In this document: in pieces, positions 1-5,833 of the stretch
Numbering within the stretch: position 1 is the stretch's first letter
Layout: every line of letters begins with the position of its first letter
NCBI GenBank assembly: GCA_023251875.1
Contig: JAHEXY010000001.1
Span: 62,001 to 126,000 of the forward strand
Reading direction: 5' to 3'
From: Bacteroidota bacterium
Lineage (GTDB): Bacteria; Bacteroidota; Bacteroidia; JAHEXY01
DNA: 64,000 nt
Position numbers and translations under genes: made by a program
Notes under the pieces: model-generated
What the model was told of the DNA's origin: nothing
Databases searched by the model: none
Seen by the model: the letters and a program-made list of their open reading frames with translations, nothing else

Positions 1-761
1 TTTTTATTCATACCCAGCTCTTGAGAATAATTAGGAACAGGCTTGGATGAAGCTGTGCTATCAAAACCATCTTTACCTGCCATAACTTCCATCATAATGG
101 CAATATCTTCTACACTTTTTGTAATGGGGCCAATTTGATCAAATGAAGATGCGTAAGCAATGGCTCCCCAACGAGAAACCCTTCCGTAAGATGGTTTTAA
201 ACCTACTGTTCCACAAAAGGATGAGGGTTGACGAATAGAGCCTCCTGTATCAGTTCCTAAAGCTGCTAAACATAAATCGGCACAAACAGCAGCAACAGAA
301 CCACCAGATGAACCTCCGGAAACACGAGTAGTATCAAGTGGATTAAGAACGGGTCCATAAGCAGAATTTTCGTTAGAGCTTCCCATTCCAAATTCATCGC
401 AATTTAAACGACCTATAATTATTGCATCTTCGTTAAGCAAACGCTCAACAACAGTTGCACTGTACAATGAAGTAAACCCTTCTAAAATTTTTGAACCTGC
501 AGAGCATTTATGATTTTTGTAGCAAATGTTATCTTTTATTCCAATCACCATTCCGGCTAATTTGCCTGCTTTGCCTTGAGCAATTTTTTGATCTAGTTGC
601 TCAGCTGCTTTCAAAGCTTCATCTTTATATACTTCTAAAAAAGCATTTAGATTTTTATGTTGTTCAATTCTATTGAGATAATAGTTTACCAATTCAAGGC
701 AACTAACTTTTTTAGCTTTTATATTTTCTTGAATTTGTATTAATGAAGTATAGGTTTGCAT
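1..761 (-). CDS. gatA: Asp-tRNA(Asn)/Glu-tRNA(Gln) amidotransferase subunit A (3' end outside window)
   Basis: GatA is the glutaminase subunit of the GatCAB complex, which converts misacylated Glu-tRNA(Gln) or Asp-tRNA(Asn) to the correct aminoacyl-tRNA in the cytoplasm. Reading the minus strand from an ATG at 761 gives an open frame to the window edge, about 253 of the usual ~475 residues. The amidase signature is clear: GIKDN with the catalytic lysine, then SGGSSGGS and DTGGSIRQP, which hold the Ser-cisSer-Lys triad. Only 2 bases separate its start from the stop of the upstream hydrolase gene, so the two are probably co-transcribed, with tatA further upstream. The C-terminal half lies to the left of the window. 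The family call is firm. Confidence 0.95.
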   Translation of the reverse strand, partial: MQTYTSLIQIQENIKAKKVSCLELVNYYLNRIEQHKNLNAFLEVYKDEALKAAEQLDQKIAQGKAGKLAGMVIGIKDNICYKNHKCSAGSKILEGFTSLYSATVVERLLNEDAIIIGRLNCDEFGMGSSNENSAYGPVLNPLDTTRVSGGSSGGSVAAVCADLCLAALGTDTGGSIRQPSSFCGTVGLKPSYGRVSRWGAIAYASSFDQIGPITKSVEDIAIMMEVMAGKDGFDSTASSKPVPNYSQELGMNK

Positions 762-3438: not shown

Positions 3439-3987
3439 TTAGGCTACAATAGCCTTATCTATTGATTTTTTTTTAAGCATTTCTTGTAACATGGTTCTTG
3501 CTCTTGATAATTGTGATTTTGATGTTCCTTCTGAAATCTGTAACATATCTGCAATTTCTTTATGTGAATACCCTTCTATTGCATACAAGTTAAAAACCAT
3601 TTTATATCCTGCAGGTAACATTTGAATTACGTTTAATAAATCAGTAGCTGCAATTTGTTCAAAGCCATCTTCTATTGCAATAGGTTCTGTTATGTCATCA
3701 ATATTGGTTATGGCATATAGATGATTATTTTGCCGAAATCTTTCAAGTATAGTATTTACTAGTACTCTCCTTACCCAACCTTCAAATGAACCTTGATTTT
3801 TGAATTGATCTATTTTTGTAAAAACTTTTACAAAGCCATCTTGCAATAAATCTTCAGCCTCTTCTCTGTTTTTTGCATAGCGCATGCATACTCCAAACAT
3901 TTTTTTACAAAAATGTTGGTACAATGCATTTTGCGATTTGCGATCTTTTGCAAGGCAACCTTTAATAAGTAGATCCAATTCTCCCAT
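3439..3987 (-). CDS. ECF-type RNA polymerase sigma factor (sigma-70 family)
   Basis: The product directs RNA polymerase to a small stress or surface regulon. From the chosen ATG at 3987 it has 182 residues. Region 2 carries YAKNREEAEDLLQDGFVKVF, and region 4 is a helix-turn-helix near the C terminus (GYSHKEIADMLQISEGTSKS). No sigma-1.1 or region 3 is present, as expected of ECF factors. An upstream in-frame start at 4080 would add 31 residues but would abut the previous stop, and that extension does not resemble sigma-70, so 3987 is preferred. It sits between a T9SS protein gene and the barrel protein gene, probably in one operon. The operon's upstream promoter is itself ECF-like, which suggests autoregulation. 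Confidence 0.92.
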   Translation of the reverse strand: MGELDLLIKGCLAKDRKSQNALYQHFCKKMFGVCMRYAKNREEAEDLLQDGFVKVFTKIDQFKNQGSFEGWVRRVLVNTILERFRQNNHLYAITNIDDITEPIAIEDGFEQIAATDLLNVIQMLPAGYKMVFNLYAIEGYSHKEIADMLQISEGTSKSQLSRARTMLQEMLKKKSIDKAIVA

Positions 3988-4080
3988 TACAATTTTTTTC
4001 TCAATCAGGATTTCAAAGGGAGTAGATATAAAATTACATAATTTATTGTTTAAATGAAATTTAAATACCTTTATTGACAA

Positions 4081-5148
4081 TTATTCTTTAATAATTATTT
4101 TCGATAAAATTTGGTTTTGACTGGTTATATTTAAACTATAAATACCGCTTTTAAAAGATTTTAAACTATAGTTAAGGATTTCGTCATTTTGCAATGTTTT
4201 ATGATCTGATAAAACAGTATTGCCAATAGCGTCTATAAACCTAATTTCTAAGGGTTGATTGCTTATTCCGTTTAAAGCCATGCTAAGATTAGCGCTAACC
4301 GGATTTGGATATACATTTATAAAAATTTCATTATTATGATATTTAGATATTGAGGCAAGCGTTGAGTCGAGTAAACTCCCATAACTCCCTAAATATTCAA
4401 CTGAACAATCAGGGTAAATATTAAATTCCCAACTTCTACGATTAATACATCCTGATAGACAATCGCCCCATCCATAGCTATAAATTAGTTTATGAAATGT
4501 TCCACTACCTGTTAAGTATTCAAAAAAACTAATGGTGTTACCATCGCCATAAGGGTAATTAATTTCAGCCATTGAAACGCCAGGTACAAGTGATATTGAA
4601 TCAACTAAAGCATAAGAGTTGAGCATTGTGGGAAAGCTTAACTCCGCTATAAATGTATAAGGCATAAAACCTATATTAACGGAGGTAACAGTAAGTTTAT
4701 AGGTATTGATTAATGTATCTAAAATAGCATTTCCGGTTGGGTAAGTATTATTCAAAAAATAAGTGATGCTTGTATTGGTATCCATTACATCTGCAATAAT
4801 ACTTTTTGATGGAGAAGGCCATGCATGAATATTAAATATTTCAATAACGGTGTCTCTTGCTGCTAGTGAAGTTGCATTATAAACAGCCATTAATGATTTC
4901 ATTATAGTGTCTTTTTCTGCTTGCGGTATTGCAATTGAAATGGTATCGGAACTTTTTGTATCGTATAACCATTTTAGAGCTAAAAGAGCAGCATCTTCTT
5001 TATACAGTTCCTGAATCGAATCAGTAGCGGAGCATGAAGAAATAACAGTTTGTGCTTGTACTTCTAATAAAGAAAATAAAAAAAATAATGTGAGTATTGT
5101 TTTTGTCATAGAATTTAAAGTATTGATGATTAAAACTAATTTTTTCAT
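4081..5148 (-). CDS. Secreted protein with T9SS type A sorting domain, function unknown
   Basis: This 355-residue protein starts with a signal peptide (an internal Met at base 5109 gives the cleaner version, MTKTILTLFFLFSLLEVQA). It ends in a Por-type C-terminal domain with the hallmark VYPNPVSANL near residue 280 and a final KIIIKE strand, so it should be exported by Sec and then by the type IX system. The central ~240 residues hold many Tyr, Ser and Thr and a few Cys but no domain I recognise. The start at 5148 lies 24 bases downstream of an ECF-like -10 element. The gene appears to be the first in an operon with the ECF sigma factor and its barrel partner. Confidence 0.8.
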   Translation of the reverse strand: MKKLVLIINTLNSMTKTILTLFFLFSLLEVQAQTVISSCSATDSIQELYKEDAALLALKWLYDTKSSDTISIAIPQAEKDTIMKSLMAVYNATSLAARDTVIEIFNIHAWPSPSKSIIADVMDTNTSITYFLNNTYPTGNAILDTLINTYKLTVTSVNIGFMPYTFIAELSFPTMLNSYALVDSISLVPGVSMAEINYPYGDGNTISFFEYLTGSGTFHKLIYSYGWGDCLSGCINRRSWEFNIYPDCSVEYLGSYGSLLDSTLASISKYHNNEIFINVYPNPVSANLSMALNGISNQPLEIRFIDAIGNTVLSDHKTLQNDEILNYSLKSFKSGIYSLNITSQNQILSKIIIKE

Positions 5149-5167
5149 ATCAGATTGCTAGGATTAA

Positions 5168-5202
5168 TCCTATAGATGCTATTTTTAATAAGAAGGTTGC
5201 AT
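5168..5202 (-). promoter_or_regulatory. ECF-sigma-like promoter of the sigma/barrel operon
   Basis: On the minus strand ATGCAACC (5202-5195) is followed after 16 bases by CATCTAT (5178-5172) and then AGGA. The same arrangement recurs upstream of the Kazal lipoprotein gene. The AACC ... CNTCTA layout with 15-16 bp spacing is the usual form of ECF promoters and differs from the TAnnTTTG housekeeping box. It points at the operon that contains the ECF sigma gene. Confidence 0.55.
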
Positions 5203-5214
5203 GGAGGTAATAAT

Positions 5215-5505
5215 TTATTTAATTGAGGTAACATAAATATAGCCTTCATTCTCATGATACATCATACACACAATAACATATTGACTGGTATCGCTACAGG
5301 AACTTGTTTGGTAATAAGAGGCACTTACAACATCTCCGTCATTAAATGATGCAACCGAACTAATATTGCATACTTGATAATCTTTGTTATTATCTCTTAA
5401 ATAAGTTCCGGTACAATCTTTAATTACAGTTACGGAGTTGTTAGATTTTTCTTTTGTGCAAGCAGAAGATAGGGCAATTAGAATTACTAAAAATGATTTT
5501 TTCAT
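5215..5505 (-). CDS. Small lipoprotein, function unknown
   Basis: This 96-residue protein has a short lipoprotein signal with lipobox LSSAC (Cys16), so it is probably lipid-anchored in the envelope. The mature part has five further cysteines (in DCTG, QVCN, SSCSD and IVCMM) that could form disulfides, and beta-strand-like stretches. I recognise no domain. It follows the Kazal lipoprotein gene by 22 bases in the same direction and likely shares its ECF-like promoter. The lipoprotein call is good; the function is unknown. Confidence 0.7.
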   Translation of the reverse strand: MKKSFLVILIALSSACTKEKSNNSVTVIKDCTGTYLRDNNKDYQVCNISSVASFNDGDVVSASYYQTSSCSDTSQYVIVCMMYHENEGYIYVTSIK

Positions 5506-5527
5506 AATCTTTATATTAATAGAATTT

Positions 5528-5776
5528 TTACTTAGATTGATTTAGAACTGCCTTGGTTTTACAAGGCCCTTTTATCCATGAAATTAAACCTGCATTTTCA
5601 GCAGAACCATAATTAAAATAGGTTTTGCCATCACATCCACAAACTGGATCATACGTGCATTCCATAATATGGGCTTTGCCAATTTTTTGTGGATCGATAC
5701 AACAATCTTCATCTCTTTGTTTTGAACAAGCAGAAAAGACTAAGGTAATTGAAGCAATGAGAAAAAATGATTTCAT
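5528..5776 (-). CDS. Kazal-type serine protease inhibitor domain lipoprotein
   Basis: This 82-residue protein has a lipobox FSAC (Cys17) and then a compact domain with CCIDP (25-29), C40, PVCGCDGKTY (44-53), AENAGL (59-64) and a final C72. That is the bacterial Kazal-like fold, whose members block serine proteases by presenting a rigid loop. The position that is usually Cys in the pattern TYxNxCxAE is Gly57, so one conserved disulfide is missing. The domain may be a degenerate or alternatively bridged form. It is first in a two-gene unit with another small lipoprotein, under an ECF-like promoter identical in layout to that of the nearby sigma operon. A role in envelope protection against proteases is inference. 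Confidence 0.75.
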   Translation of the reverse strand: MKSFFLIASITLVFSACSKQRDEDCCIDPQKIGKAHIMECTYDPVCGCDGKTYFNYGSAENAGLISWIKGPCKTKAVLNQSK

Positions 5777-5803
5777 AAATATCTATTTTAGGTTTATGTT
5801 CCT

Positions 5804-5833
5804 ATAGATGCATTTAAAAGGAAAAGGTTGCAT
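5804..5833 (-). promoter_or_regulatory. ECF-sigma-like promoter of the Kazal lipoprotein unit
   Basis: On the minus strand ATGCAACC (5833-5826) is followed after 15 bases by CATCTAT (5810-5804) and AGGA. The start codon lies 27 bases downstream at 5776. It matches the promoter at 5168-5202 in both boxes, in the flanking T/A-rich spacer and in distance to the start codon. Confidence 0.55.

Follow-up and report, generated by a model that had tools for sequence, protein, structure and literature searches.

A 64,000-nucleotide stretch of the genome of a Bacteroidota bacterium (assembly GCA_023251875.1, contig JAHEXY010000001.1, positions 62,001 to 126,000; hereafter, the window) encodes an extracytoplasmic function (ECF) sigma factor in a group of five minus-strand genes. 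In the order of transcription, these encode two lipoproteins, a protein with a sorting tail of the type IX secretion system (T9SS), the sigma factor and a barrel protein (Table 1). An earlier note on this DNA had pointed out two copies of one promoter-like word in the group, and the locus raises the question of what the sigma factor controls and what holds it in check. Our analysis points to an autoregulated switch made of an ECF sigma factor and a dual-membrane anti-sigma factor, of the Das/Dma type, with a very small local regulon, and we consider this reading quite probable.

Promoter word in the window and in the genome

As first written, the word reads ATGCAACC-N16-CATCTAT at positions 5172-5202 and ATGCAACC-N15-CATCTAT at positions 5804-5833, on the minus strand and with AGGA after both; in the notation of the conserved core, the copies are TGCAACC-N15-GCATCTA (P1) and TGCAACC-N14-GCATCTA (P2). 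The claim that each lies shortly before a start codon was borne out: the -10 element of P1 ends 23-24 bases before the ATG at 5148 (the distance to the start is about 62 bases if the T9SS protein begins at the internal Met14), and that of P2 ends 27-28 bases before the ATG at 5776. The window contains no third copy, and none appeared in 100 dinucleotide shuffles. The housekeeping word of Bacteroidota (TTG-N17-23-TAnnTTTG) was not found on the minus strand between 1900 and 6100, and a scan for sigma-70-type promoters gave fewer matches than shuffles did.

The whole genome of 4,807,429 bases (4.81 Mb) contains two exact copies of TGCAACC-N14/15-GCATCTAT and no more, both of them in the window. 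Likewise, only two exact TGCAACC/CATCTAT pairs were found at spacings of 15-19 (reversed control, 0), and about 0.02 exact matches would be expected if bases were independent. A word that is abundant and bears no relation to starts, the outcome against which the earlier note had set its claim, was therefore not what we found. Relaxed searches (up to two to three mismatches) returned 35-129 matches, roughly two to four times the reversed control; in one of these searches the spacer exceeded the true length by one to two bases, and its result counts as an off-spacing look only. When 90 matches from searches that tolerate one to three mismatches were inspected in context, 81 were intragenic and, beyond the window pair, only two, with two to three mismatches, were intergenic with a start codon after them; the convincing promoters among those inspected are the two window sites only. 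The genome encodes about 16 ECF sigma factors; apart from the window gene, their genes lack the word upstream. The regulon predicted by the word in this genome would comprise two promoters and five genes and looks private to the locus, and the genome-wide regulon for which the word had been offered as a search term did not appear.

A recent local duplication could also have left two functionless copies of the word, and the distance between them (about 630 bases) would suit such an origin. We find this scarcely credible, as the two copies differ in their flanking sequences and in the length and sequence of their spacers, and as conservation of the word extends across the phylum.

The word before related sigma genes

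Related sigma factors are 45-58% identical to that of the window. We examined 78 sigma loci from named Bacteroidota records. The word lies within about 250 bp upstream, at no more than three mismatches in 14 positions, in 35 of them, whereas about 2.5 were expected from shuffles and none was found in downstream controls. Laboratory strains of Pedobacter or Mucilaginibacter are among those with the word ahead of the sigma gene. The spacer is 15 in 34 of these 35 loci, and the consensus from related loci is [TC]GCAACC-[TA]TT-N13-CATCT[TA], or, in shorter form, [TC]GCAACC-N15-xCATCT[TA]. For the nearest sigma factors, from other families of the class, the word stands 56-94 bases ahead of the sigma match, again with a spacer of 15. 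A relaxed search over 615 kb of the related loci returned 21 words (reversed control, 0), of which 20 are placed upstream of a sigma gene and one ahead of a lipoprotein gene located farther downstream than the anti-sigma gene. These counts run contrary to the other outcome considered in the earlier note, namely that the word would be lacking before related sigma operons. Its claim that an ECF-type promoter drives the sigma factor's own operon is supported by the conservation, the position and the spacing of the word before related sigma genes. Autoregulation of the sigma factor is a well-supported prediction, because the same word with a 15-base spacer precedes related sigma genes across Bacteroidota at many times the expected frequency.

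The exact word was found 37 times in 198 genomes of the class, against three reversed controls. Of the 36 copies that lie in other genomes, six are clearly intragenic and about 12 precede a sigma gene or the operon that contains it; most others that have a close following gene precede exported or T9SS-like proteins. A phylum-wide search with the CATCTTT variant was uninformative (37 against nine in the reversed control, many of them coding-like). Separately, two genomes of one family (f21; G063 and G132, loci L338-L341 and L344-L348) carry four to five exact words each, scattered, intergenic and with no sigma gene nearby, which suggests a possible wider regulon in that lineage.

The second promoter, proposed to drive the lipoprotein genes, is less certain than the first because its spacer of 14 is one base below the conserved length, although its -35 and -10 elements are exact. 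It might be that the sigma factor controls its own operon only, through P1, and that P2 is weak or inactive owing to its spacer, the lipoproteins being expressed otherwise; the near-constant spacer of related sigma promoters would favour this. We regard it as unlikely, however, since P2 has both elements intact, is followed by AGGA as is P1, lies 28 bases from a start and is the sole other exact copy in the genome, and since neighbouring lipoprotein genes at other loci also carry the word.

With about 16 ECF sigma factors in the genome and a pairing of word and sigma factor that rests on sequence, the word might also be the site of a different regulator or ECF sigma factor, the window sigma gene merely lying downstream of it. 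Yet the word tracks this sigma family across many genera and is not found upstream of the other ECF sigma genes of the genome, and other genes there are served by a second word, whose -10 is CGTATA; this explanation is thus very unlikely in our judgement.

Several points nevertheless weigh against the switch that we propose. No word was found at three or fewer mismatches at 57 of 108 sigma loci, and other members must therefore use diverged promoters. In most relatives the word stands immediately ahead of the sigma gene, but in the window the T9SS gene intervenes, and the 14-base spacer of P2 departs from the 15 of related sigma promoters. The case for the promoters and the switch is built on sequence and predicted structure. 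Finally, the window sigma factor is only a candidate member of group ECF21: the best 80 related loci are titled Bacteroidota (one title being uninformative) and 43 of 110 partners have a barrel, observations that do not define the group.

The barrel partner as a probable Dma-type anti-sigma factor

The protein encoded after the sigma gene is most plausibly a Dma-type anti-sigma factor, a role overlooked in the earlier note, because its predicted domain order is that of the Dma family, which has an N-terminal anti-sigma region, a transmembrane (TM) helix, a long disordered tether and a C-terminal barrel (PMC13088901). In the window protein, putative cytoplasmic helices (residues about 8-45) are followed by a TM segment (about 50-70), a disordered stretch (74-229, a tether of about 155 residues) and an OmpA-like eight-stranded barrel (about 230-493). 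The AlphaFold model, built from 26 homologues, has helices at 8-73 as one long continuous helix that includes the hydrophobic stretch (hydropathy 1.8 at about 50-70), as expected of a single TM helix, the N-terminal helices being of moderate confidence. The pLDDT score is below 50 nearly throughout 74-229, in keeping with a long disordered tether, and 80-97 in most strands of the barrel. An outer-membrane barrel is also indicated by PF13568, which is matched just above its cut-off here (28 against 27 bits) and by 24 of 26 long partners, and by VIA-align, which gave a Z of about 18 to the barrels of OmpA, OprF and NspA. A search of solved structures by sequence with a Dma profile gave no significant match.

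The barrel protein could be an ordinary outer-membrane protein encoded behind the sigma gene by chance. Sequence similarity to characterised anti-sigma domains was not detected, and inhibition itself is only predicted. On the other hand, a putative cytoplasmic N-terminal stretch and a TM helix precede the barrel in the model, and the same helical, conserved N-terminus is found in the gene following the sigma gene at 107 of 110 loci, even where the C-terminus is different. We consider a chance neighbour most improbable.

Comparison with known systems and proposed mechanism

Two pairs of an ECF21 sigma factor and a dual membrane-spanning anti-sigma factor, Das1/Dma1 and Das2/Dma2, have been described in Bacteroides thetaiotaomicron, where das2 and the neighbouring genes bt_1555-1557 rose by 2.5-6 log2 units on deletion of dma2; no promoter motif for these sigma factors is given in that report (PMC13088901). 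An autoregulated local switch would be expected to respond in this way, and the window locus fits such a switch. The two systems are alike in that an ECF sigma gene adjoins a gene for a protein with an N-terminal anti-sigma region (a putative one in the window protein), a TM helix, a disordered tether and a barrel, and in strong local autoregulation, as reported for das2 and its neighbours and predicted here. They differ in that the window operon opens with a T9SS-sorted protein, that a separate copy of the word precedes the lipoprotein pair, and that no NigD1-type target is known for the window system. The window system most likely belongs to the known Das/Dma kind, with a conserved promoter word, and would extend that kind well beyond gut Bacteroides.

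In Flavobacterium psychrophilum, the motif SM6, an ECF-type motif inferred from start sites, is linked to T9SS genes (PMC9723704); it is of the same class of Bacteroidota ECF promoters, but the window word has GCATCTA, and the CGTATA word of the genome is closer to SM6. In Porphyromonas gingivalis, the T9SS-linked ECF sigma factor SigP of the PorXY-SigP system likewise has a small protein with a T9SS C-terminal domain, PorA, acting upstream of it; however, SigP is under a two-component system, and PorA, which is found only in Porphyromonas, is not an anti-sigma factor (PMC7712824). We found no report of the promoter word in the literature searched, although the main ECF classification papers were outside that search and a published ECF21 motif is possible.

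In the mechanism that we propose, the cytoplasmic N-terminus of the anti-sigma factor most likely holds the sigma factor, with the barrel inserted in the outer membrane. There, a change (a ligand, misassembly of the barrel, loss of tension or proteolysis) would free the sigma factor, the signal passing from the barrel through the tether and the TM helix. The freed sigma factor would guide RNA polymerase to the two copies of the conserved word; activation of P1 would raise the sigma factor's own operon (T9SS protein, sigma factor and anti-sigma factor) and activation of P2 the upstream lipoprotein pair. The amplification would carry its own brake, because the anti-sigma factor shares the operon of the sigma factor. 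The consensus word predicts the targets of such sigma factors from sequence alone, and our results suggest that they are often very local switches, acting on themselves and on one or two exported proteins.

Variation of the putative anti-sigma partner

The outer end of the partner is a barrel at 43 of the 110 sigma loci, a CHU_C T9SS sorting domain at 15 and neither at 52; the last are mostly 230-320 amino acids (aa) long with one TM segment, and a few are cut by contig ends. All eight CHU_C partners tested were above the Pfam cut-off, and several have a PKD domain ahead (Table 1). In the model of one of them (L287), the low-confidence N-terminal helices, one of them of TM length (54-72), precede a disordered stretch, after which come two confidently modelled beta domains (158-324). 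Mapped on the sigma tree, the partner types require 18 changes, compared with 45 when shuffled, and CHU_C taken by itself requires four; the promoter word was found with all three types. We tentatively propose, as a reading somewhat short of probable, that this sigma family swaps the outer end of its anti-sigma factor, a barrel or CHU_C (often with PKD), and keeps the N-terminus, the TM helix and the word. If so, the secretion machinery would anchor a CHU_C-type anti-sigma factor, whose sigma factor would report T9SS activity or surface export instead of the state of the outer membrane. An anti-sigma factor with a T9SS or CHU_C tail was not reported in the literature searched; these loci make it testable whether an anti-sigma factor can directly monitor protein export across the outer membrane.

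Genes of the locus and their products

Table 1. Positions of the genes and candidate promoters in the window, and of CHU_C partners at related loci
Feature	Position	Strand	Basis or remark
Promoter word P2	5804..5832	-	-35 TGCAACC 5826-5832; -10 GCATCTAT 5804-5811; spacer 14; precedes two lipoprotein genes
Cys-rich lipoprotein, 82 aa, partial Kazal motif	5528..5776	-	Kazal_2 PF07648 19.5 bits, cut-off 22.8
Small lipoprotein, 96 aa	5215..5505	-	lipobox-like LSSAC read from sequence
Promoter word P1	5172..5201	-	-35 TGCAACC 5195-5201; -10 GCATCTAT 5172-5179; spacer 15; precedes T9SS gene, sigma, dma
Exported protein, 355 aa, type A T9SS sorting tail; opens the sigma operon	4081..5148	-	PF18962, TIGR04183
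ECF sigma factor, 182 aa	3439..3987	-	TIGR02937 101.3 bits
Predicted Dma-type anti-sigma factor, 493 aa	1951..3432	-	PF13568, AlphaFold model, VIA-align
PKD + CHU_C (type B T9SS sorting domain) partner	L287 4519-5499		
PKD + CHU_C partner	L295 4524-5504		
PKD + CHU_C partner	L046 2022-2984		
PKD + CHU_C partner	L039 2049-3158		
PKD + CHU_C partner	L365 6461-7417	-	
PKD + CHU_C partners	L283, L049, L057, L043		

The calls of an ECF sigma factor, a T9SS tail and a barrel made in the earlier note all stand above curated cut-offs. For the sigma factor, the cut-off of TIGR02937 is 42.9 bits, and PF04542 and PF08281 (regions 2 and 4) are also matched above theirs; its start is most likely the ATG at 3987 rather than the mechanical TTG at 4080. 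The tail of the T9SS protein matches PF18962 with 41.1 bits (cut-off 27; 2.2e-10) and TIGR04183 (5.3e-09), and the Por_Secre_tail match above cut-off is that of type A T9SS cargo. Profile searches gave no family match for the 96-aa lipoprotein. The terminator scan listed no minus-strand terminator between 5528 and 5172, and read-through from the lipoprotein genes into the sigma operon is therefore possible.

The 82-aa protein, called a Kazal-inhibitor lipoprotein, retains that description in part. Its motif CTYDPVCGCDGKTYFN is Kazal-like and its best PDB match is a Kazal-type silk protease inhibitor (E=0.0017), but the Cys of the subsequent usual NxC motif is replaced, and the domain match covers only positions 9-25 of the 48 of the profile and stays below the Pfam cut-off. 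The suggested role in envelope or protease defence is unsupported, because this match is partial and below the cut-off and because the cargo genes vary between loci. At L357 (6596-8064, minus strand), for instance, two genes separate the word from the sigma gene, one for a 94-aa peptide whose start resembles a double-glycine leader and one for a 129-aa lipoprotein; at L349, a gene for a 211-aa exported protein takes this place, and a divergent lipoprotein gene has its own word. A lipoprotein gene with its own word also lies downstream of the anti-sigma gene at L361 and L230. The lipoproteins with their own word beside the sigma/anti-sigma loci L349, L361 and L230 form a family that shares ...NVP(I/L)Y(M/L)(T/S)....

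Homologues of the T9SS protein at the head of the operon were found in eight of 197 other genomes of the class. Five of these eight loci were checked and none is near a sigma gene or the word, and we rejected this protein as a conserved partner of the sigma factor.

Other observations in the genome

Three paralogues of a primary-type sigma factor of about 289 aa are encoded in the genome (C19:384470, C11:528577 and C22:300520; L307, L308 and L311). The genome also contains 10 copies of a second ECF-like word, TGYAACC-N15/16-CGTATA, against two in the reversed control (L297-L306; C7:210016, C11:291910, C11:513136, C11:767786, C11:791541, C14:40419, C14:115070, C19:94030, C22:92536 and C23:106059). 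All 10 sites are intergenic with an open reading frame after each, and the products include secreted or T9SS proteins and two response-regulator-like proteins. A similar word lies upstream of the sigma gene at C15:2976.
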